From the NCBI RefSeq assembly GCF_013322225.1, contig NZ_JAAMFB010000009.1, forward strand, positions 124,001 through 188,000: 64,000 nucleotides of DNA, given 5' to 3'. Under the pieces are notes generated by a model that was given only the letters and a program-made list of their open reading frames with translations, was not told where the DNA came from and did no database searches. This document shows, piece after piece, positions 2,403 to 13,201 of the stretch. Origin of the DNA: Agrobacterium larrymoorei. GTDB taxonomy: Bacteria; Pseudomonadota; Alphaproteobacteria; Rhizobiales; Rhizobiaceae. Every line of letters begins with the position of its first letter. The first letter of the stretch is position 1. A program made the position numbers and the translations under genes.

Positions 2403-3428
2403 ATGACAATGAAGAAAATTGGTTTTCTCTCCTTCGGTCACTGGGGTCCTGGGCCCCACTCCCACGCACGCTCCGCCAAAGATGTTTTACAGCAGTCCAT
2501 CGAGCTTTCAGTGGCTGCGGAAGATATCGGTCTGGATGGGGCATATTTCCGCGTTCACCATTTTGCACGCCAGCTGGCGTCGCCATTTCCGCTGCTGGCC
2601 GCGGTCGGTGCGCGCACGAGCAAAATCGAAATCGGCACGGCCGTCATCGATATGCGTTACGAAAATCCGCTTTACATGGTGGAAGATGCAGGTGCCGCGG
2701 ATTTGATCTCGAATGGTCGTCTCCAGTTGGGATTGAGCCGCGGCTCGCCCGAACAGGTGATCGATGGGTGGCGCTATTTCGGCTATCGGCCCTCGGACGG
2801 TAAAAGCGACGCGGATATGGGCCGCGACAGCGCGGAGGTGTTTCTCGAAGCGCTGAAAGGCGAAGGCTTTGCCGAACCAAATCCGCGTCCCATGTTTCCA
2901 AATCCGCCTGGACTTTTGCGATTGGAACCGCATTCCGAAGGGTTGAGGGAAAGAATCTGGTGGGGTGCCAGTTCCAACTCCACCGCCATCTGGGCCGCGA
3001 AGCAGGGAATGAACCTGCAAAGTTCGACATTGAAGACTGACGAAACAGGTGAGCCGTTCCATGTCCAGCAGGCAGCGCAGATAAGAGCCTACCGCGATGC
3101 CTGGAAGGAAGCGGGACATACGCGTTCGCCGCGTGTTTCAGTCAGCCGCAGCATTTTTGCGTTGGTGGATGACCGGGACAGGGCGTATTTCGGTGGTAGT
3201 AAGGACCAGGATAGCATCGGCTATATCGAAGCCGACACGCGAGCCATATTCGGCCGATCCTATGCCGCAGAACCCGATGTTCTGATTGAAGAACTGGCGA
3301 AGGATGAGGCAATCGCCGAAGCCGATACCCTATTGTTGACGATTCCGAACCAACTGGGTGTGGAATACAACGTGCATGTGCTTGATGCGATCCTCAAGCA
3401 TGTTGCACCGGCACTCGGCTGGCGTTGA
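2403..3428 (+). CDS. LLM class flavin-dependent oxidoreductase (bacterial luciferase-like)
   Basis: This 341-residue luciferase-like monooxygenase has a TIM-barrel fold and would use reduced flavin (FMN or F420) supplied by a reductase. The family pattern is visible throughout: N-terminal beta strand (KIGFLSFGHWGPG), FRVHHF near residue 45, the conserved RLQLGLSRGSPEQ segment near residue 105, and a C-terminal dimer region. The substrate is unknown. An ATG two codons downstream (2409) is an equally good start because the AGG ribosome site serves both. It looks like a single gene between the amine transporter and the secretion cluster, ended by a hairpin. Confidence 0.85.
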   Translation: MTMKKIGFLSFGHWGPGPHSHARSAKDVLQQSIELSVAAEDIGLDGAYFRVHHFARQLASPFPLLAAVGARTSKIEIGTAVIDMRYENPLYMVEDAGAADLISNGRLQLGLSRGSPEQVIDGWRYFGYRPSDGKSDADMGRDSAEVFLEALKGEGFAEPNPRPMFPNPPGLLRLEPHSEGLRERIWWGASSNSTAIWAAKQGMNLQSSTLKTDETGEPFHVQQAAQIRAYRDAWKEAGHTRSPRVSVSRSIFALVDDRDRAYFGGSKDQDSIGYIEADTRAIFGRSYAAEPDVLIEELAKDEAIAEADTLLLTIPNQLGVEYNVHVLDAILKHVAPALGWR

Positions 3429-3446
3429 TCTTGGAATAAAATATTG

Positions 3447-3476
3447 AAGCCGGAGCCGCGTTGGCGGCACCGGCTT
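3447..3476 (+). terminator. Terminator-like hairpin after the LLM oxidoreductase
   Basis: AAGCCGG-A-GCCGC pairs with GCGGC-A-CCGGCTT at 12 of 13 positions around a short loop, 19 bases after the stop codon. The U-run is weak (TTATAC), so termination may be partial. It also marks the left edge of the type III secretion region. Confidence 0.45.
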
Positions 3477-3759
3477 ATACCGGTTCGCGCTTATAGAGCC
3501 GCCGCTTGTCGCTTTCTGTGCTGTTACATTACGAGACACAATAAGAGGCGAACTTCCATTTTGTACTTGAGCGTCGCCGCTGTGTACTCCGCTGTCTCCC
3601 ATTTCCGTGCAGTTTATGTATTGTTCTAGAAAGAGAAGCATTTGTTCTATCGTAATTTTAGAAAGCGTAAATTAGATAATTAGAAGTATATAAATGAATA
3701 TATTTTAGAATATTATATTATTTACATTATAATTTCGGTTAAACATCGATTAAAGAATG

Positions 3760-3774
3760 TATATTGACAATATA
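3760..3774. promoter_or_regulatory. AT-rich 15-bp palindrome before the type III operon
   Basis: TATATTG-A-CAATATA is a perfect 7+1+7 inverted repeat ending 52 bases before the first gene of the secretion operon, in the AT-rich tract. Position and symmetry suggest a regulator operator or the core of the main promoter. Confidence 0.35.
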
Positions 3775-3826
3775 AATGCTCAAAACTACCAATTTCACAT
3801 TCAATTTTCTTTGGGAAGGAAATGAC

Positions 3827-4057
3827 ATGGCGGTGGAATCGATCAGTTCAAGCCTTGGAAATGTCGGTTTAGATGCCGTCGATGCGGACAAGAAGGCGTC
3901 AAGTCTCTCCAAGGACGCGTCGGGGAAAATTTCCCCCGAAATGGAAAGCGAGATCATAGACTCGTTTTTGCCGGGCATGATTACCAATCAGCTGATGCTC
4001 AATGGCCAACTTTTTGATTTCGCCAAAGAAGCGATCAACGAAGCGGATTCTGAATAA
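3827..4057 (+). CDS. Small protein heading the T3SS operon, possible needle/pilin subunit (SctF/NopA-like)
   Basis: This 76-residue protein has no signal peptide, starts at an ATG with a strong GGAAGGAAATGAC ribosome site, and is Ser/Asp-rich at its N-terminus. The C-terminal half is predicted helical (MITNQLMLNGQLFDFAKEAI). Size, lack of cysteine and position as first gene before the NopB/SctI-like gene fit a type III needle or pilin subunit. I cannot recognise a family from sequence alone, so the assignment rests on context. An in-frame codon 51 bases upstream would extend it without a ribosome site. It could instead be a small secreted or regulatory protein. Confidence 0.5.
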   Translation: MAVESISSSLGNVGLDAVDADKKASSLSKDASGKISPEMESEIIDSFLPGMITNQLMLNGQLFDFAKEAINEADSE

Positions 4058-4101
4058 GCTGCATCGGCATGGGCCCCGCGAGTATCGAGTAGGAGTTGCC
4101 G

Positions 4102-4578
4102 GTGAGCGATGGATATCTTCCGCAAGGCATTGCGCCTGTTTCAGGTGGTTTCGATACGAAGCCGAACGTTGCTGCTCAGTTTGATGATGCCTTCATCTCT
4201 TCTCCTACCGCGGAGTCGGCGTCCAAAGCCGATGTTGCCAGTATCGGTGATACGCAGCAGCGACGGATTTCTCCTTTCGATACGACAAGCGTCGTGACGA
4301 ATGATCGCTCAAACCACAGCGTGAGCGGTTTGAGTTCCGGCGAGCATCCAGGTTCGTTTCCGATTTTTCAGCGATTGACCTCGCTGTTTTCTTTGCCGGA
4401 GAGCAAGCGCTCAAGTGAGATGTCCAGCGGTGCCGACGATGGCGAAGTGTCGCCGAAAACGGGCAGGGCTATGCTGGAATTCGAGAAAATGCAGCAGGTC
4501 TCAGTGGGTTACGCACTCCTCTCCTCGCTCACCCAATCGGTCCTGTCTTCCATGAAACGTCTGACTCAGGGGCAGTAG
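4102..4578 (+). CDS. NopB/SctI-like T3SS inner-rod or pilus-associated protein
   Basis: This 158-residue protein lies directly upstream of sctJ, the position of nopB in rhizobial type III clusters. The first 110 residues are Ser/Asp-rich and low-complexity. The last 40 form a helix-rich module (MLEFEKMQQVSVGYALL...LTQSVLSSMKRL) that resembles the conserved C-terminus of SctI inner-rod proteins. I prefer GTG at 4102, six bases after AGGAG, over TTG at 4096, which abuts the ribosome site. It is longer than typical SctI (about 100 residues) and close to NopB length. The function is inferred from order plus the C-terminal pattern. Confidence 0.55.
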   Translation: MSDGYLPQGIAPVSGGFDTKPNVAAQFDDAFISSPTAESASKADVASIGDTQQRRISPFDTTSVVTNDRSNHSVSGLSSGEHPGSFPIFQRLTSLFSLPESKRSSEMSSGADDGEVSPKTGRAMLEFEKMQQVSVGYALLSSLTQSVLSSMKRLTQGQ

Positions 4579-4579
4579 A

Positions 4580-5347
4580 ATGGGGGTCGGGGGATTATCG
4601 CGGGCAATTTGCGCTCTGGGACTGACGCTTTCGCTCGCAGGCTGTTCGGAAGACTTCATCGGAAACTTAAGCCAGCGCGACATGCTGGATGCGCAGGTGT
4701 TGCTGGAGCGGTCGGGTATCGACGTTGTTGCAACCAAGGGGGAAGACAATCGCTACAGCCTATCCGGAGATGCCGCTGATCGTGTGAAGGCTCTGGAAAT
4801 TCTGACCAGCCAGGGTTTGCCGCGCAGTGAATTTCCCTCTGTCGCGGAAGTCTTCCCCGGTAGCGGCTTTCTGGTGACGCCATTCGAGCAGAAGATCCGA
4901 ATGCGCTACGCAATCGAGCAGCAACTTTCAGAAACCCTTATGGCTCTGGAAGGCGTGTCGGACGCTCGTGTCCATGTGGTCCTGCCGGAAGACAACGGTC
5001 GCGGACTGATCAAGGAAAAAGCGCGTGCTTCAGTCCTTTTGACATATCGGGATGGGGCGGATGTTGCCGCCATCGAGACACGCAGCAGGGCTTTGGTCGT
5101 AAATGGTGTTCAGGGCCTTTCCTACGAAGACATTTCGGTCGTTGCCAGCCCGCGTCAAATTGGAATGGACCCGATCCGGTCAACGCCTGCCACGCCGGCT
5201 CAGCCTTCTGAGGTGGTTGATGGAGAAGGCTGGTTTACGTGGGCCAGCGGATTCAGCAAGCAGGGATTGTTGATCACTTTCGCTCTTTTGCTGGCTATCG
5301 GCGCTGGTTTTCTGCTGCTCATGCCGCGCCGTGAGGAAAACCCGTGA
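4580..5347 (+). CDS. sctJ: Type III secretion inner-membrane ring lipoprotein SctJ (RhcJ)
   Basis: This 255-residue lipoprotein forms the inner MS-ring-like component of the secretion basal body. A lipoprotein signal with lipobox LAGC puts the acylated cysteine at residue 21. The YscJ/FliF ring-building domains follow (SQRDMLDAQVLLERSGI; GVSDARVHVVLPE), then a C-terminal membrane helix near residues 228-248 and a basic tail (MPRREENP). It starts 1 base after the previous stop and its end overlaps sctK by 4 bases (GTGA), so it is translationally coupled. Length and domain order are normal. Confidence 0.92.
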   Translation: MGVGGLSRAICALGLTLSLAGCSEDFIGNLSQRDMLDAQVLLERSGIDVVATKGEDNRYSLSGDAADRVKALEILTSQGLPRSEFPSVAEVFPGSGFLVTPFEQKIRMRYAIEQQLSETLMALEGVSDARVHVVLPEDNGRGLIKEKARASVLLTYRDGADVAAIETRSRALVVNGVQGLSYEDISVVASPRQIGMDPIRSTPATPAQPSEVVDGEGWFTWASGFSKQGLLITFALLLAIGAGFLLLMPRREENP

Positions 5348-5976
5348 CGGAGAAAGCCCAGCATGATTTTTCACGATTGCCTTCGCCGGTCGCTCTTGCC
5401 CGAGAGAAGCGGAGACTGGTGGCGTGTGCCAAGCTTCGCAATGTATCCCTCTTTCAAAGCGTTCCTGAAACGCTACGCCACAGAATTAAAAGTTCACCAC
5501 GTCTGTCTCATCGCCTCTACGGCATTCTTGTCGCGGAACTTGGCCAGCCAACGCTTTCCTCGGTAGGAGCCAGAAATTTTCATCTGATGCCGGAGCTGGA
5601 GCTGGAGAGAGTTTCGCTCTTGCTAGGCCTTTCATATGATTTCGCACTGCGCGGCGGTGCGATAAGGGGCGCTGTCCTGGAAAGCGTCGGCACATTCTGC
5701 AGCGCTGAAACGGTCGCCAAGGCCCTGCATTACGCCGCAGGTTTTCCATTATCGTTCCCTCCAACTGATTTGGAGCCGATTACCGAAACGGCGCTTTTGT
5801 GCAACGGCTGGAGCCTGCTGCGCCTTTGGGCTGGCGCGGAGAGGATAAATCCCGCTTGGCGCATCTGCGATGCAAAAACGGTCGGAGCGACGTTGGGCTC
5901 AGTCCATCGTAACCTAGCCTGCGAACTCGCAACAGTAATTCTAGCTGATGCGACGCTCCATGGGCAGGAGGCGTAA
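5344..5976 (+). CDS. sctK: Type III secretion sorting-platform protein SctK (NolU-like)
   Basis: This 210-residue cytoplasmic protein occupies the nolU position between sctJ and sctL. SctK links the inner-membrane ring to the SctQ-SctL-SctN sorting platform. The sequence is poorly conserved, as usual for the family; identification rests on gene order, length and an acidic/hydrophobic all-helical profile without membrane segments. The GTG start at 5344 overlaps the sctJ stop and follows a GAGGAAAA ribosome site. Confidence 0.75.
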   Translation: MTEKAQHDFSRLPSPVALAREKRRLVACAKLRNVSLFQSVPETLRHRIKSSPRLSHRLYGILVAELGQPTLSSVGARNFHLMPELELERVSLLLGLSYDFALRGGAIRGAVLESVGTFCSAETVAKALHYAAGFPLSFPPTDLEPITETALLCNGWSLLRLWAGAERINPAWRICDAKTVGATLGSVHRNLACELATVILADATLHGQEA

Positions 5977-6518
5977 TGTCCAGGATCATTCGCGCGGAAG
6001 ATTTCGCTCATGTCTACGAGGCGGAGCGGCTCGTTGCGGCGCTGGAAAAGCGAGCCGCCGGTTTGGAGGAAGAGCGCAGGTCTGTTCTCGAAGTTGCGCG
6101 CGCAGAGGGTTTCGCCGCAGGGCGTCGGGATGGCTTTGAATTTCTAGCCGCTCATCTCGGCGAAGCGCTCGGAAAGGCCGAGCGTGAGCTTAAAGATATG
6201 GAAGAGCGGATTGCTACGGTTGTTTTCCAGGCAATCGGACTAATCCTTGCGGATTTTACGCCGCAGGAGCGCTATCGCCAAATGGTAACGCAGGCTGTTC
6301 GGGATGAGGCGGCATCTTCGAGTATAGTTGTAAAAGTCTGCGTCGAGGATCATGACATCGTCAGCGAAGCGCTGAAAGACGTACATCCCAACATCTCTGT
6401 GCTGACGGACCAGTATATGGCGCCGGGCGAAGTTGTTCTGGAAGCCGAAGGCACGCGCAAGCACATCGGTCTTGCAGATCAGCTTGCGCGTCTTGTGGAA
6501 GCCATCAATCGTGGCTGA
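5976..6518 (+). CDS. sctL: Type III secretion stator protein SctL (NolV-like)
   Basis: This 180-residue FliH/SctL family regulator tethers the ATPase SctN to the sorting platform. Residues about 10-80 are a charged, Ala/Glu-rich coiled coil (AERLVAALEKRAAGLEEER). The C-terminal half carries the conserved FliH-like fold (IGLILADFTPQERY... APGEVVLEAEGT). The ATG overlaps the sctK stop by one base. Its last codons overlap the sctN GTG start by 8 bases. Confidence 0.85.
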   Translation: MSRIIRAEDFAHVYEAERLVAALEKRAAGLEEERRSVLEVARAEGFAAGRRDGFEFLAAHLGEALGKAERELKDMEERIATVVFQAIGLILADFTPQERYRQMVTQAVRDEAASSSIVVKVCVEDHDIVSEALKDVHPNISVLTDQYMAPGEVVLEAEGTRKHIGLADQLARLVEAINRG

Positions 6519-7830
6519 CCTTCTCGCGAAGCTCGAACAGGCAGTAAGCGCCGTCGACACGCGACGAAGCGGCGGGAGGATCAGCAGCATTTCCGGCTTG
6601 TTGGTGCGCGCAGAACTCCCTTTGGTCCGTGTGGGTGAGCTTTGTGAGTTGTACGAGCCTGGCAAAGGCACGATCGGCTTCGCTGAGGTGGTCGGAATAG
6701 ACGGCGACGTGGCGTTGCTGTCGTTGCACGGAGAAACGCGCGGTCTATCAATGCGGACCGAGGTCGTTCCTTCGGGGCGTGAACCGAGCATTGAAGTGGG
6801 GGACTTTCTGATCGGCGCTATCATCGATGCGCATGGTCACATCGTTCGCCGTGCTTTCGGAACCTCAGGGCTGTCCAGCAGATCATTCCGCTCACTATAT
6901 GGTAGTCCGGTCGATCCGCTATCGCGTAAGCCCATTTCCCGCACCTTTGTGACGGGCGTCACAGCAATCGATGCGATGTTGACCTGCGGCGAGGGCCAGC
7001 GCGTCGGAATATTCGGTCCTCCCGGTGCGGGCAAATCAACGCTTATTTCCGAAATCATCCAAAACACCCAAGCCGATGTCATCGTCTGCGCGCTGGTGGG
7101 GGAGCGCGGGCGGGAAGTTGGTGAATTCGTGCAGCACAATATGCCCGATGCTCAGCCATCGAAAATGGTGCTGGTTTCGGCAACCTCCGACCGGCCCGCT
7201 CTGGAGCGATACAAGGCGGTTCTGACGGCAACGGCTATTGCCGAGCATTTTCGAGATGAGGGAAAAAGCGTTCTGCTGGTTATCGACAGTGTAACCCGCG
7301 TTGCGCGCGCCATGCGCGAAATAGGACTGGCATCTGGCGAGCCGCCTGTTAGGCGCGGATTTCCGCCCTCCGTATTTGCGGCCCTACCGCAAATCTTTGA
7401 GCGAACCGGTAACGGCGTGTCGGGCTCGATAACCGCATTTTATTCAGTTCTGGTCGAGGGTGCAGACAACGAAGATCCGATAGCGGAAGAGTCGCGGTCG
7501 CTTCTCGACGGCCATATTGTGCTGTCGGAACGCATCGCCAGATCGGGCCAGTTTCCTGCAATCGATATTCTGCAAAGCAGAAGCCGCCTGATGAGTGCTG
7601 TCACTTCAACCCGACACCAGACGGCAGCCAACCGGATACGTTCGCTCATGTCTACCTATAGCGATGTCGAGCTGCTGATACGTGTCGGCGAATACAGGCA
7701 GGGTAACGATCCTGACGTCGATGAAGCGGTCGCAAAAAGGGACGCGATTAACGCCATGCTATATGACGGCAAAGGCGGCACCCGTTCCTTTGAACAGATC
7801 GTGGACGCGGTCGAGGGTCTGGCGCAATGA
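6511..7830 (+). CDS. sctN: Type III secretion ATPase SctN (RhcN)
   Basis: This 439-residue hexameric ATPase unfolds and delivers substrates to the export gate. It has the F1-beta-like layout: N-terminal barrel, Walker A GPPGAGKST near residue 170, the catalytic-glutamate block LVGERGREV near 193, Walker B VLLVIDSVTR near 253, and the conserved LASGEPPVRRGFPPSVF segment near 272. The correct start is GTG at 6511, which gives the family N-terminus (VADLLAKLEQAV) and overlaps sctL. Upstream in-frame starts lie inside sctL. All catalytic motifs are intact. The next gene begins at the stop codon (ATGA), so there is no room for sctO or sctP. Confidence 0.95.
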   Translation: MADLLAKLEQAVSAVDTRRSGGRISSISGLLVRAELPLVRVGELCELYEPGKGTIGFAEVVGIDGDVALLSLHGETRGLSMRTEVVPSGREPSIEVGDFLIGAIIDAHGHIVRRAFGTSGLSSRSFRSLYGSPVDPLSRKPISRTFVTGVTAIDAMLTCGEGQRVGIFGPPGAGKSTLISEIIQNTQADVIVCALVGERGREVGEFVQHNMPDAQPSKMVLVSATSDRPALERYKAVLTATAIAEHFRDEGKSVLLVIDSVTRVARAMREIGLASGEPPVRRGFPPSVFAALPQIFERTGNGVSGSITAFYSVLVEGADNEDPIAEESRSLLDGHIVLSERIARSGQFPAIDILQSRSRLMSAVTSTRHQTAANRIRSLMSTYSDVELLIRVGEYRQGNDPDVDEAVAKRDAINAMLYDGKGGTRSFEQIVDAVEGLAQ

Positions 7831-8837
7831 CGGCAAGGATCGCACTGAGTTTCGAAGATGCCGGGCTGCCGCTGGACCGTCGATTTGCCGAGAAAAAGCC
7901 GTGGCCGCTTCTGACGGGAGCGGAATGGATTTCAATTCGCCCGATGCGTATCGAGCTTGCCGCGGAGAGCATCACCGATCCAGTCTACATAAGGGCTCGC
8001 ATTGGTGATGACGACATAGTGGTGAAGCTGTCGCATAATAGCCTGACTTTATTGTGCAATCGGCGCGAACCGGGGCTGGATTGGCGCAATGTCCATTCAC
8101 AGATCAAGCCTCTGGTTCTTGAATGCATTTTGCAGAACGCCTTCACGAAGCTGGAGGAAATCTGCGGCTGCACAATCGAGATAACCGACGTTCAGGACGA
8201 CGATCCTTCAGGTTTTGCTACCAATTTTGCCTGTGAAATCGAAGTGGATGGTATCGCTGTTCCGGCGGGTCTGCTGGTTTCGCCCGCGCAACTCGGCAAG
8301 CTTCAAAGATGGCAACACAGTCTACCCGGGGTCATGCCCTCGGTACTCCATATTCCCATTAATATACGCCACGGTAGCGCAACGATTTCCAGTGCAGAAC
8401 TACGTTCGTTGCGCATCGGAGATGCGATCGTGCTGGGTGTTGCCTATGAGGCAGCGCCCGTTTGGGCCGTCACCGGCGAGCGTTTCCTGGCAGAGGTGAC
8501 CGAGCAGGACGATGGCTTGCGCCTTTTGACCCCACTTCTCTCAATTCCCCCCAGTTCGATGAGGCATTTGATGGCGACGTCTGACGATCAGGAACATCAT
8601 ATTCACCCGGTGCAGGGTGCGGTTGGCGACATTCCGATCAGACTTGTTTTCGACGCCGGCCGCATCGAGGTCCCCCTCTCTGAACTGGAGGGTATCGGCG
8701 TAGGGCACGTCTTCGACATCGGTCGCCATCCATCCCGCAGCGTCGATATCGTCGCTCAAGGCCGTATTATCGGACATGGCGAAGTCGTTTCCGTAGAGGG
8801 CCTCACCGCCGTCCGCATCACGGCGCTCAACCCCTGA
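7827..8837 (+). CDS. sctQ: Type III secretion C-ring protein SctQ (RhcQ)
   Basis: This 336-residue SctQ/FliN-family protein forms the cytosolic sorting platform pods. The N-terminal 250 residues are variable. The C-terminal SpoA domain is recognisable at about residues 262-335 (IPIRLVFDAGRIEVPLSELE...GRIIGHGEVV). Its ATG overlaps the sctN stop (ATGA) and its TGA overlaps the sctR ATG by one base. A second, internal SpoA (260-320 region) is not separately visible. Confidence 0.9.
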   Translation: MTARIALSFEDAGLPLDRRFAEKKPWPLLTGAEWISIRPMRIELAAESITDPVYIRARIGDDDIVVKLSHNSLTLLCNRREPGLDWRNVHSQIKPLVLECILQNAFTKLEEICGCTIEITDVQDDDPSGFATNFACEIEVDGIAVPAGLLVSPAQLGKLQRWQHSLPGVMPSVLHIPINIRHGSATISSAELRSLRIGDAIVLGVAYEAAPVWAVTGERFLAEVTEQDDGLRLLTPLLSIPPSSMRHLMATSDDQEHHIHPVQGAVGDIPIRLVFDAGRIEVPLSELEGIGVGHVFDIGRHPSRSVDIVAQGRIIGHGEVVSVEGLTAVRITALNP

Positions 8838-9490
8838 TGGACTCTGGATTTCCCATTAGCCAAAGCCTTGCCGCGTTGTCGATCATTTCGATATTGCCCG
8901 TCATCGCTGTCATAGCCACGTCTTTCACGAAGATTTCCGTCGTTTTGCTGATCGTTCGGAACGCTATCGGTATACAGCAGACACCGCCAAACCTGCTGGT
9001 ATTCGCCATCGCAATCGTCCTGACGGTCTTCGTCATGGATCCGGTGTTGCGCGAAAGCTGGCGGCTGCTTCTGGTTCACTCCGCAGATTTCTCTGCTGCT
9101 GGCACGATGGCCGAGGGTTTTTCCAAGGTTTCGGAACCGCTCAAATCCTTCATGCTCAGATATTCCGATCAGGAGGTCCGCGATTTTTTCGCCCAGGCAT
9201 CGAAACAGGTTTGGCAGGGTGCGGAAGCAAATGCGGCCGGGCCAGACGATCTGACGGTACTTGCACCTAGTTTTCTGGTCTCAGAACTAACCCGCGCCTT
9301 CGAAATCGGCTTTCTGATCTATTTGCCGTTCCTGATGATCGATTTCGCCATTTCCGCAATTCTGGTGTCTCTGGGTATGCAGATGATGTCGCCCACCGTG
9401 GTCTCCACGCCTGTCAAATTGCTGCTGTTCGTATCCATCGATGGATGGCGCAGGCTGCTAGAAGGTCTGGTACTGACCTATGCGACTTGA
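8837..9490 (+). CDS. sctR: Type III secretion export-gate protein SctR (RhcR)
   Basis: This 217-residue FliP/SctR family protein is five subunits of the helical export-gate cone. Hallmarks are the N-terminal hydrophobic pair with TSFTKISVVLLIVRNAIG near residues 29-46, a polar stretch with SFMLRYSDQEVRDFF, and the C-terminal signature FEIGFLIYLPFLMIDFAISA followed by LGMQMMSPTVVSTPVKLLLF. No Sec-type signal peptide, unlike FliP, which favours the secretion rather than the flagellar branch. Length and motifs are complete. Confidence 0.95.
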   Translation: MDSGFPISQSLAALSIISILPVIAVIATSFTKISVVLLIVRNAIGIQQTPPNLLVFAIAIVLTVFVMDPVLRESWRLLLVHSADFSAAGTMAEGFSKVSEPLKSFMLRYSDQEVRDFFAQASKQVWQGAEANAAGPDDLTVLAPSFLVSELTRAFEIGFLIYLPFLMIDFAISAILVSLGMQMMSPTVVSTPVKLLLFVSIDGWRRLLEGLVLTYAT

Positions 9491-9502
9491 GGGAATGCGC
9501 AT

Positions 9503-9772
9503 ATGAACAGCGACCAGATGGTGGCAGAAATCAGCATGTCTGCCATGGCCACTTTCGCGCTGGCTGGGCCGCTGTTGATACTCGCGGCGGTCATTGGCCT
9601 GTTGATAGCGGTGTTTCAGGCTGCGACTCAGATTCAAGAGCAGACCATCGCGCAAATCATCAAGATCGGACTGATCTCGGCGGCTTTGCTGTTTTTCGGA
9701 CGGGCGCTTGCAACCCCTTTGATCGAGCATTCCATTCACATTCTCAACGACTTTCCTAACATGGTTCGTTGA
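9503..9772 (+). CDS. sctS: Type III secretion export-gate protein SctS (RhcS)
   Basis: This 89-residue FliQ/SctS protein forms two transmembrane hairpin helices of the export gate. The conserved QAATQIQEQTIAQIIKI loop lies between the two hydrophobic segments. It starts 12 bases after sctR and ends 3 bases before sctT. Normal family length. Confidence 0.94.
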   Translation: MNSDQMVAEISMSAMATFALAGPLLILAAVIGLLIAVFQAATQIQEQTIAQIIKIGLISAALLFFGRALATPLIEHSIHILNDFPNMVR

Positions 9773-9775
9773 GCG

Positions 9776-10579
9776 ATGGGGGCGGGGCAGGCTGTCGATG
9801 TCAATATCGCCGTGCCCGCGGCCCTCATGCTGGGCGCCGCCAGAGCGCTTGGCATCATGGTCATCTTCCCGATTTTTTCGCTCTTCAATATCGCTGGAAT
9901 ATTAAGGTTTGGTCTTGCCATCGGCCTGTCGGCGCCTTCGTTGATGGTGGCTTACACCTTCATCATGAAAGGGCAGGTGACGTATTTCGACCTGTCGTTT
10001 CTGTCCGTAAAGGAATTCGTTTTCGGCTTTGTGCTCGGCATCGGGCTTGGAGTGCCTTTCTGGGCCGCGCAGGCAACAGGTGATATGACCGATGTCTATC
10101 GCGGGGCGAATGCCGCGAACCTGTTCGATCAGGTCAACGCACTAGAGACCGCACCATTAGGTTCGTTGCTGATGTCGATTGCTCTGATGCTCTTTATCGG
10201 AGCAGGTGGCTTGGTCGATCTTATCTCTATCTTCTATATGTCTTTCAGCTTCTGGCCTCTGTTGGCCGCCTTCCCTCGATTGCCTGAAGCGCCACTCGTT
10301 CCGATGATCCAGATTTTCGCCAGTATCTTCAAAGCCGGTGCAGTCCTCGCTTCGCCTTTCATTATCGTGGCAATGACAATCGAACTTTCATTCAGTTATA
10401 CGGCTAGATCGGCGAGGCAATTGCAATTGAATGATGCCTTGCCGGTCTTCAAGAATCTCGCGGTTTTGGTTGTCCTTGTCGTTTACACCATGTTCATCGG
10501 CAGTTACTTCCACGAGACATGGACGAGTGGATTTACGCAGGTAAGATCCATGCTGGAGGTCGATCTTGGCAAAGAATGA
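9776..10579 (+). CDS. sctT: Type III secretion export-gate protein SctT (RhcT)
   Basis: This 267-residue multi-spanning FliR/SctT protein is the single-copy subunit closing the export-gate helix. Hydrophobic segments are spread along its length. The family blocks ARALGIMVIFPIF (N-terminal), GIGLGVPFWAAQATGDMTDVYRG (centre) and a DLISIFYMSFSFWP stretch are visible. It ends 14 bases inside the sctU coding frame. Confidence 0.93.
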   Translation: MGAGQAVDVNIAVPAALMLGAARALGIMVIFPIFSLFNIAGILRFGLAIGLSAPSLMVAYTFIMKGQVTYFDLSFLSVKEFVFGFVLGIGLGVPFWAAQATGDMTDVYRGANAANLFDQVNALETAPLGSLLMSIALMLFIGAGGLVDLISIFYMSFSFWPLLAAFPRLPEAPLVPMIQIFASIFKAGAVLASPFIIVAMTIELSFSYTARSARQLQLNDALPVFKNLAVLVVLVVYTMFIGSYFHETWTSGFTQVRSMLEVDLGKE

Positions 10580-11342
10580 CGACACGGAAGAAAAGTCACT
10601 ACCGCCCAGCCAGATCAAGCTCAATAAATTGCGCCGTGATGGGCAGGTCGCCCGCTCGAAGGATTTGCCAGCAGCCGTCTCGGTACTCGCCATCACATGC
10701 TATCTCGTCTGGATGAGCCAGTCGATCCTGCAGAGCTTCGCTCATTTCTTCGAAGCTCCACTGTCAGTTTTGCCGCAAACTGGGCGAGAGTTCGATATCG
10801 GTTACTTCGGTGCCCTGGTCCGATCTTCGGCAGTTGAGCTGTTGTTGATGGTCGCCGTTCCTGCGGCCCTCGGTGTCGTTGCGGTCATCGTTACCGCTAT
10901 CATCGATGGGCAGGGTCTGTTGATGTCTATGAAGCATATGAAACTGGACTTCAATCGGATGAACCCCGCCGAGGGTTTCAAGAAAATGTTCTCTTTTTCC
11001 AGCATCATAGAGTTCGTGAAAAGCATGGTGAAGTTTGCCGTATTGACGACTGCCGGTGCCGCGACGCTCATCTATTTTCTCAACGCCGTTTTCTGGTCGC
11101 CACTTTGCGGTGCCGAATGCAGCCTTGCCGTCTCCAGCTATCTTATTGCGACGATGGTGGTTATCGTTTCCATCATCATCGTCATTGCGGCTGCTTTCGA
11201 TATCCGCATCTCCAGAGGCCTGTTCCAGCGCGAACACCGGATGACGAAAACAGAATCCAAGCGAGAGCAGAAGGAAACCTACGGCGACCCGCACGTCCGC
11301 TCGGCACGCAGGCGAATTGGCAACGAAATCCGGCGGGGATGA
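10566..11342 (+). CDS. sctU: Type III secretion export switch SctU (RhcU), truncated before the autocleavage domain
   Basis: The TTG start at 10566 gives the family N-terminus (SQIKLNKLRRDGQVARSKD), then four hydrophobic segments and the linker FQREHRMTKTESKREQKE, GDPHVRSARRRI. The frame then stops at TGA 11340-11342 after NEIRRG, giving 258 residues where the family has about 345-360. The missing part is the cytoplasmic domain with the self-cleaving NPTH motif that controls substrate switching. None of the other frames continues it. Fifteen bases later begins the terminator of the convergent glp operon. This is a 3' truncation at the junction with the host region. The protein may insert in the gate but should not switch normally. 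Confidence 0.88.
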   Translation: MAKNDDTEEKSLPPSQIKLNKLRRDGQVARSKDLPAAVSVLAITCYLVWMSQSILQSFAHFFEAPLSVLPQTGREFDIGYFGALVRSSAVELLLMVAVPAALGVVAVIVTAIIDGQGLLMSMKHMKLDFNRMNPAEGFKKMFSFSSIIEFVKSMVKFAVLTTAGAATLIYFLNAVFWSPLCGAECSLAVSSYLIATMVVIVSIIIVIAAAFDIRISRGLFQREHRMTKTESKREQKETYGDPHVRSARRRIGNEIRRG

Positions 11343-11350
11343 GCTTGCGC

Positions 11351-11381
11351 ATAAAAAATCGGGGCGGAAAACCGCCCCGAT
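11351..11381 (-). terminator. Rho-independent terminator of the glp operon
   Basis: A perfect 10-bp stem (ATCGGGGCGG at 11358-11367, CCGCCCCGAT at 11372-11381) with an AAAA loop is followed, on the minus strand, by a run of Ts (11352-11358 read as A on plus). It lies 24 bases beyond the glpV stop. On the plus strand no U-run follows, so it would not terminate the sctU transcript well. Confidence 0.85.
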
Positions 11382-11404
11382 GAATGTTATTAAGAGTCAA
11401 AGGC

Positions 11405-13126
11405 TTATTTCTGCCAGCTCTTCACCAGTTCATCGTAATTAACGGTAACTGGCTTTTCCTTCTCGTTCTGGATCTTTAGCTGCGGTGCAAGGTGGCCCTT
11501 GGATACGGCATCCTTGTTCCAGTATTCGAGATCGTGCTCTTCAGCCAGCTTCGGACCCTTGTCGCCCTGAACGCCTGCGCGTTCCAGACGCTGCATGACC
11601 TTTTCCTGTTCTGCGCAAAGCGAGTCCATGGCTTCCTGTGCGGTCTTTGCGCCGGAAGAGGCATCACCCACGGCCTGCCACCACAGCTGCGCGAGCTTCG
11701 GATAGTCAGGAACGTTGGTGCCGGTCGGAGACCACTGAACGCGGGCAGGTGAACGATAGAACTCGATCAGACCGCCGAGATCTTTGGCGCGCTTGGTGAA
11801 GCTCTCGTGGTTGATGGTCGATTCACGGATGAGCGTCAGGCCGACATGAGCCTTCTTCACGTCCACGGTTTTGGAAGTGACGAACTGCGCATAGAGCCAT
11901 GCAGCCTTGGCGCGGTCAGTCGGGGTGGACTTCATCAGCGTCCATGAACCCACGTCCTGATAGCCGAGCTTCATGCCGTCCTTCCAGTAAACGCCGTGCG
12001 GGGAGGGTGCCATGCGCCATTTCGGCGTGCCATCCTCGTTGACGACGGGCAGACCTTTCTTGACCGCATCTGCGGTAAAGGCGGTGTACCAGAAGATCTG
12101 CTGCGCGACTTCACCCTGCGCCGGAACCGGGCCGGACTCGGAGAAGTTCATGCCCTGTGCTGCCGGAGGAGCGTATGCCTTCAACCAGTCGAGATATTTT
12201 TGGATGGCGTAAACGGAGGCAGGGCCGTTTGTATCACCGCCGCGTGCAACGCAGGAGCCGACCGGCTGGGACTTTTCGTTGACCTTGATGCCCCATTCAT
12301 CGACGGGTAGACCGTTTGGCAGGCCTTTGTCGCCGTTACCGGCCATGGAAAGCCATGCATCGGTGAAGCGCCAGCCGAGAGATGGGTCCTTCTTGCCATA
12401 ATCCATATGGCCGTAGACCTTCTTGCCGTTGATTTCACGGCCGGTGAAGAATTCGGCAATGTCTTCGTAAGCAGACCAGTTGACCGGAACGCCAAGATCG
12501 TAGCCGTACTTGGCCTTGAAGTCGGCCTTGTTCTTGGCATCGTTGAACCAGTCATAACGGAACCAGTAAAGGTTCGCGAACTGCTGGTCGGGAAGCTGAT
12601 AGAGCTTACCATCCGGTGCCGTGGTGAACTTGGTGCCGATGAAGTCCTTCAGATCGAGACCGGGGTTGGTCACGTCCTTGCCTTCGCCTGCCATCCAGTC
12701 GGTGAGGTTGCGCACCTGCTGGTAGCGCCAATGGGTACCGATCAAGTCACTGTCGTTGACGAAAGCGTCGTAGATGTTTTCGCCGGACTGCATCTGCGTC
12801 TGCAGCTTTTCAACGACGTCACCTTCACCGATCAGGTCGTGGGTGATCTTGATACCGGTGATTTCCGAGAATGCCTTGGCCAGCACCTTCGATTCATATT
12901 CATGCGTCGTCAGCGTTTCCGAGACGACCTTGATATCCATGCCGGCGAAAGGCTTCGCGGCATCGATGAACCATTGCATTTCCTTTTCCTGGTCCGCACG
13001 GGAAAGGGAGGAGAGGTCGCCCACTTCCTTGTCGAGGAAGGATTTCGCCTCGTTCATGCCAGCGTGAGCCACGCCGGTAATTGCCAGCAGCGCCGCTGCT
13101 GTCGTTGTCAGAAGATGCATTCGCAT
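11405..13126 (-). CDS. glpV: Glycerol/glycerol-3-phosphate ABC transporter substrate-binding protein GlpV
   Basis: This 573-residue family-1 extracellular binding protein is the periplasmic receptor of the rhizobial Glp transporter. A Sec signal peptide (LLTTTAAALLAITGVAHA) ends near residue 22. I chose the ATG at 13126 because it has an excellent GGAGGAC ribosome site. An in-frame ATG 36 bases upstream has none. The large size, compared with 400-450 residues for typical sugar-binding proteins, matches the GlpV family. It is the last gene of the glpD-S-T-P-Q-U-V order and ends at a strong terminator. Confidence 0.88.
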   Translation of the reverse strand: MRMHLLTTTAAALLAITGVAHAGMNEAKSFLDKEVGDLSSLSRADQEKEMQWFIDAAKPFAGMDIKVVSETLTTHEYESKVLAKAFSEITGIKITHDLIGEGDVVEKLQTQMQSGENIYDAFVNDSDLIGTHWRYQQVRNLTDWMAGEGKDVTNPGLDLKDFIGTKFTTAPDGKLYQLPDQQFANLYWFRYDWFNDAKNKADFKAKYGYDLGVPVNWSAYEDIAEFFTGREINGKKVYGHMDYGKKDPSLGWRFTDAWLSMAGNGDKGLPNGLPVDEWGIKVNEKSQPVGSCVARGGDTNGPASVYAIQKYLDWLKAYAPPAAQGMNFSESGPVPAQGEVAQQIFWYTAFTADAVKKGLPVVNEDGTPKWRMAPSPHGVYWKDGMKLGYQDVGSWTLMKSTPTDRAKAAWLYAQFVTSKTVDVKKAHVGLTLIRESTINHESFTKRAKDLGGLIEFYRSPARVQWSPTGTNVPDYPKLAQLWWQAVGDASSGAKTAQEAMDSLCAEQEKVMQRLERAGVQGDKGPKLAEEHDLEYWNKDAVSKGHLAPQLKIQNEKEKPVTVNYDELVKSWQK

Positions 13127-13201
13127 TTTAGTCCTCCAATTTTGCGATTGCTTCAGATGCATTTCGCCGGGTCGTCCTCCGTCCCGGTATGTCGTCGGCA
13201 G

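Follow-up and report, generated by a model that had tools for sequence, protein, structure and literature searches.

The short SctU at the glp junction of Agrobacterium larrymoorei is probably the normal inherited form of Rhc-III type III secretion systems

Why does a sctU gene at the edge of a type III secretion system (T3SS) block in Agrobacterium larrymoorei stop after 258 codons, ahead of the C-terminal domain (C-domain) in which SctU and flagellar FlhB cleave themselves at an NPTH motif? Autocleavage and the C-domain are commonly held to be general for ordered type III secretion. The gene lies in a 64,000-nucleotide stretch of contig NZ_JAAMFB010000009.1 (assembly GCF_013322225.1, positions 124,001 to 188,000 of the forward strand), which is called the window here. 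An earlier note on this DNA had ascribed the short gene to a recombination or deletion at the adjoining glp operon. The best explanation of the whole, and in our judgement a probable one on the sequence comparisons made here, is that the 258-residue protein represents what Rhc-III systems normally inherit, and that this group is a conserved T3SS which has given up its substrate-specificity switch.

The window sctU (10566-11342, plus strand) is an open frame with a TTG start and a TGA stop. Its match to the Pfam family Bac_export_2 runs through profile positions 1-240 of 335, and that to the NCBIfam SctU model TIGR01404 through positions 1-241 of 341 at 170 bits, an equivalog score below the cut-off of 358. 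The stop falls about 15 residues ahead of the alignment column of the cleavage asparagine, so that the protein retains the four-helix export-gate part and the first cytoplasmic helices and misses the NPTH/autocleavage domain. Both the family match and a VIA-align structure comparison, which covers mainly residues 30-225, find the transmembrane export-gate domain of the FlhB/SctU family. The earlier description of a SctU membrane half that ends at codon 258 and lacks the NPTH domain is thus borne out by the open frame, Pfam and NCBIfam. Judged by its sequence, the protein is outside the autocleaving SctU type, with neither an NPTH site nor a C-domain.

Is this form peculiar to one genome? When the window SctU was searched against 394 genomes of the family, the eight sequences ranked next after its own gene were 49-55 per cent identical to it, and below them identity dropped to 36 per cent. 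All eight proteins, of 261-268 residues, end near the same place, and the shortness of the window SctU is therefore not due to chance. Among the named loci, which are the best 80 of 101 encoding a SctU relative, 53 carry a full-length protein of 336-392 residues and 27 a truncated one of 254-279 residues, found in Rhizobium, Sinorhizobium, Ensifer and Allorhizobium; all 27 truncated frames are open, at 47-56 per cent identity to the window. The HrcU proteins of Rhizobium etli CFN42 and CIAT 652 have 265 residues, and a plasmid copy of Sinorhizobium meliloti has 273.

A tree of the membrane halves, for which 90 of 117 proteins were used, unites the truncated Rhc-III proteins in a single clade with support 100/100; its 19 rows are the window protein, 16 of the named loci, L008 and L153. 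The SctU of R. etli CFN42, outside the tree, is identical to tree row L054. Of the 27 proteins kept out, 23 are at least 89 per cent identical to a kept row; the thinned rows L112 (83 per cent), L104 (80 per cent) and the truncated L007 (69 per cent) and L009 (75 per cent) are not copies. Membership of the window system in Rhc-III is well supported. No complete sctU was seen inside the Rhc-III clade among the sampled members, all of which share the truncation although they belong to several genera and have other gene neighbourhoods, and the truncation must therefore be older than the glp junction. A separate short protein, the 257-residue L199 (G165:C1:716446-717171), is probably frameshifted; it is tallied as truncated in the tree table though it comes from another, NPTH-bearing SctU family.

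The cleavage site itself is missing far beyond Rhc-III. None of the 53 full-length relatives among the named loci has NPTH at the site, one of them carrying an NPSH at residue 70, far from it. The 117 proteins comprise 18 with NPTH, 63 full-length without it and 36 short ones, and on the tree 50 rows without NPTH join the 19 Rhc-III rows in a clade of 69 (support 100/97) that holds no NPTH row. Outside the tree, two proteins of Sinorhizobium fredii NGR234 and those of Mycetohabitans and Microvirga were checked: the motif is missing in both SctU of NGR234 and present in Mycetohabitans. In its simplest reading, the pattern suggests that loss of the cleavage site preceded that of the domain. The site would have gone first, in an ancestor of the wider Rhc group as placed by the tree, and the SctU C-domain and subdomain D2 of SctV later, on the Rhc-III stem.

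Some of the proteins can be named. Like the 53 named loci, L208 and L209 are full-length and lack NPTH; together these SctU stand for Rhc-I, Rhc-II and systems related to them, both NGR234 copies included. The records of Brucella endophytica (L097) and Ochrobactrum chromiisoli (L108) also contain Rhc-related SctU without it. Three full-length SctU/FlhB-like proteins without NPTH (L196, L197 and L198) stand outside the clade of 69, beside an NPTH row on a long branch. The system of plasmid pNGR234a is functional, and a review says as much of Rhc-I clusters.

Where is the rest of the system? Contig C8 of the same genome holds an open sctV frame (L036:10321-12270) together with sctD-, sctO- and RhcC1-like genes and a gene for a HrpW-like pectate lyase, so that sctV, sctD and rhcC1, for which the earlier note had advised a genome search, are all located there. 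C27 carries an HrpK-like frame of 1003 codons, and the T3SS is thus scattered over three contigs (C57, C8 and C27). An assembly break was rejected, both T3SS pieces being far from the ends of their contigs, which measure 210539 and 120724 bases. SctV frames are open wherever SctV was found in the truncated named loci; no sctV was found in the 20 kb around the locus of Sinorhizobium sojae (L037). The HrpW-like gene is not present in all Rhc-III members. Next to sctV, on the minus strand, L036:9298-10197 encodes a 299-residue protein with repeated amphipathic-looking segments and a weak Pfam match, which looks like a secreted harpin-type or helper protein.

SctV, too, is shortened. The stretch aligned to residues 434-483 of the genome's own FlhA, where there are 50 residues, is reduced to 3 residues in every one of the 35 Rhc-III rows (four pairs of same-contig loci included), about 47 being missing, and 48-53 residues in 36 of 36 other Rhc-like rows, of which L080 is cut; 21 of the 90 loci are without SctV. 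We estimate that this stretch corresponds to about residues 430-480 of Salmonella FlhA, of which 446, 459 and 477 are assigned to subdomain D2 in the literature; in FlhA, D2 makes up one wall of the chaperone cleft and one of the D2-D4 opening. As aligned, Rhc-III SctV is a protein that has lost D2. The subdomain is retained in those full-length SctU relatives that adjoin Rhc-III on the tree and have SctV in the locus (L074, L094 and L122).

These shared absences could be read as loss stages of a decaying relic that no longer secretes, with the SctU C-domain, SctV D2, RhcC2 and SctP gone in turn. The genome has a single secretin match, on C55, a contig in which no T3SS genes were found, and rhcC2 is reported absent from Rhc-III. 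No ruler for the T3SS came up when nine genomes were scanned with one domain model: each has a single Flg_hook domain of FliK/SctP, near flagellar genes and 20-26 kb away from a full-length FlhB-type gene of that contig, and in the window genome it lies between flhB and flhA on C3. Two papers give SctP as unknown in Rhc systems, review passages report no function for Rhc-III, and the dispersal over three contigs also favours decay. Set against this are the open SctU and SctV frames, and losses that are clean, shared removals of domains, not scattered stops. In 17 hand-chosen pairs of truncated sctU, two of which, with the window, are saturated, the ratio of replacement to silent change (dN/dS) is 0.06-0.23 in all 15 that can be measured, and from residue 214 onward silent changes per site outnumber replacement changes in 17 of 17. 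Purifying selection on the truncated gene argues against decay for the Rhc-III clade, and we regard the relic as unlikely.

A second alternative is provision of the C-domain in trans, the source being either a diverged fragment or flagellar FlhB through its cleaved-off C-domain. All nine genomes searched do encode one or more full-length FlhB-type proteins that have a C-domain; in the window genome Pfam finds two FlhB-type genes, the window sctU and a full-length one on C3 that bears NPTH. A separate fragment, whose possible existence the earlier note had raised, was looked for in nine genomes and 38 loci and was not found. A profile built from nine C-domains, with and without NPTH, matched in the nine Rhc-III genomes only segments that belong to FlhB or SctU frames of full length; the match ranked after these had E 0.139 and three stops. 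A six-frame search of the 38 loci (37 around truncated sctU genes and that on C8) gave none at E<0.001, with none in the window; the same search detected 53 of 53 control loci. Supply by FlhB, moreover, leaves unexplained the loss of NPTH in relatives and of D2 in SctV. We consider provision in trans very improbable.

What, then, happened at the glp junction? In four of six same-genus genomes compared (G400, G396, G419 and G401) the genes that flank the island lie only 55-161 bases apart; in G400 homology ends at window position 3426 and restarts at 11405, with 59 bases between, and across the empty-site genomes it restarts at 11401-11405. The other two, G367 and G424, have differently arranged flanks. 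Because the site is empty in these relatives, the window holds an inserted T3SS block of about 8 kb, the first half of the island (3430-11401); on the right it ends somewhere between the stop codon of sctU and the glp gene. The intrinsic terminator (11358-11381, minus strand) has a perfect 10-bp stem and is oriented toward glp, because its T run is on the minus strand. The gap of 15 bases between it and the sctU stop is as had been claimed; the end coordinate 11381 given for the feature takes in sctU plus the terminator, sctU itself ending at 11342. That a junction event in this single island also took away the 3' end of sctU and the genes beyond it is hardly credible: it draws on the position of the stop at the island edge and on a second operon (sctV, sctD, rhcC1 and the HrpW-like gene) lying on another contig, when no more than 10 kb separate sctV and sctU in 25 of 27 named loci (the remaining two stretches end early), but the same SctU end in all sampled Rhc-III in other neighbourhoods refutes it for sctU, a refutation limited to sctU and not extending to the splitting of the island, and the downstream genes are on C8. 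The comparison with related strains thus confirms the right edge of the insertion in four of six genomes, as the earlier note had proposed; its loss of sctU sequence founders on the equal shortness of all sampled Rhc-III, and its removal of sctV on the open frame on C8.

The flanks of the island are a gene at 2403-3428 (plus strand), conserved in same-genus genomes and presumably for a luciferase-like monooxygenase-type protein, and a gene at 11405-13162 (minus strand) whose 3' kilobase is matched in 38 of 39 genomes of the genus and which we take to encode the glp substrate-binding protein. At the island borders examined no convincing repeats were found as marks of an insertion mechanism. The base composition of the island resembles that of its flanks except in the AT-rich kilobase 3001-4000. 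Ahead of the T3SS block an AT-rich segment (3600-3760) contains a promoter-like site (3704-3733); the region has 9 such sites in total, compared with 5.4 expected by shuffling.

All genes of the block are on the plus strand, and their order J-K-L-N-Q-R-S-T-U is that of R. etli Rhc-III. The lipoprotein of the inner ring, sctJ (4580-5347), matches TIGR02544 above its cut-off; the gene in the sctK/nolU position (5344-5976) has tblastn matches to Rhc-III loci and no family match. The stator gene sctL (5976-6518; TIGR02499, above cut-off) is followed by the ATPase gene sctN, identified by family matches, at 6433-7830, where 6433 is the limit of the open frame and not a fixed start. The cytoplasmic ring gene sctQ (7827-8837) is just above the cut-off of TIGR02551 and sctR (8837-9490) above that of TIGR01102; sctS (9503-9772) matches PF01313, and the best match of sctT (9776-10579), TIGR01401, is below its cut-off. 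Two open reading frames (ORFs) conserved in Rhc-III come before sctJ: one of 160 residues with a conserved C-terminus (4096-4578), in the nopB/sctI position, and a small one of 76 residues from its second methionine (3827-4057, the frame being open from 3776), compared without L072 and L073. Family scans with NCBIfam for the former and Pfam for the latter gave no useful match, and the 160-residue ORF was rejected as a NopB homologue (hhalign probability 0.1 per cent). The two are possible candidates for early substrates.

How would a gate without the C-domain work? The membrane part of FlhB and its loop wrap the export gate, as others have shown, and Rhc-III SctU would still serve as clamp and loop of the SctRST gate. 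It would be unable to cleave, to dock early substrates at the C-domain or to be switched, and the gate may be held in one fixed, permanently unlocked mode, resembling most closely the late mode seen when FlhB lacks its cleaved C-domain. In PMC13344023, a stop at FlhB codon 258 permits late secretion in Salmonella that lacks Fluke and the rod-hook genes and has raised expression, and a deletion of residues 270-383 does likewise, with FliK not needed and export of an early hook-protein fusion stopped. Alternatively there may be no canonical sorting: SctV D2 is missing too, and classical early and late docking may both be gone. In the window genome this system lies in separated pieces, one ending at the glp terminator. 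We tentatively see in Rhc-III, at somewhat short of an even chance, a working lineage that may have shed the ruler, the autocleaving SctU domain and SctV D2 after the wider Rhc group gave up autocleavage; it would be a natural minimal export gate, with another sorting rule or none and perhaps no passage of the outer membrane by way of a dedicated secretin.

Several points weigh against reading the short SctU as part of a conserved T3SS without a switch. With Fluke present the Salmonella mutant loses late secretion and is held in early mode, and raised expression is needed (PMC13344023), so that transfer to Rhc-III is by analogy only; a 2014 review gives function as demonstrated for Rhc-I clusters only. 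Rhc-III retains the 160-residue ORF and the small ORF before it, which tells against a simple locked-late gate, because a gate unable to export early substrates should not need them. The loss of D2 is read from the alignment, and the functional loss it implies is less certain because the D1-D2 cleft is reported not to be conserved in injectisome SctV, where D2 is also less clearly a docking site than it is in FlhA. The absence of SctP draws on the one domain model in nine genomes and the two papers. The number and order of losses are uncertain, because the clade of 69 has an insecure root, insecure first forks and several long rows. The selection figures come from relatives, silent change being saturated in the pairs with the window sctU.

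The Rhc-III group is already known; that it consistently goes without the domain was not met in the titles, abstract beginnings and passages covered, and no search was aimed at SctV D2. Nor does anything there describe rhizobia that have naturally lost NPTH or the SctU C-domain (PMC3973906, PMC3574062, PMC3040844, PMC2427183, PMC1084347, PMC10970691, PMC9569860, PMC7064499, PMC3459982, PMC9431611, PMC5932034, PMC13344023). About 30 natural systems without the domain, whose sctU shows purifying selection in those pairs that were measured, and the NGR234 proteins without the cleavage site allow a direct test of the domain as an inhibitor to be removed, as was proposed in 2026 for flagella, and reveal which parts of SctU and SctV are lost together. 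Annotation is also corrected, the short sctU genes of this group not being fragments.

How does the window SctU compare with known systems? In Salmonella FlhB the cleavage asparagine is residue 269. The Salmonella mutant (PMC13344023) resembles the window protein in that it stops about 12 residues before that asparagine, compared with about 15, and differs in being a laboratory flagellar state that needs loss of Fluke and raised expression. The FlhB of the FliPQR-FlhB gate (PDB 6s3l) shares the transmembrane fold and loop; its cytoplasmic domain, in contrast, is in the sequence, though not visible in the map. The Rhc-I system of S. fredii NGR234 (pNGR234a) likewise has SctU without NPTH, and SctP is, according to a review, not known from any rhizobium; the system keeps both the SctU C-domain and SctV D2. 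Closest are the Rhc-III systems of R. etli CFN42 (p42d) and CIAT 652 (pB), which share the order from sctJ to sctU, the 265-residue HrcU with a similar end, the HrpW-like gene, SctV without D2 and RhcC1, rhcC2 being reported absent. There both halves of the system stand together, whereas in A. larrymoorei they are split between C57 and C8, with the HrpK-like frame on C27.
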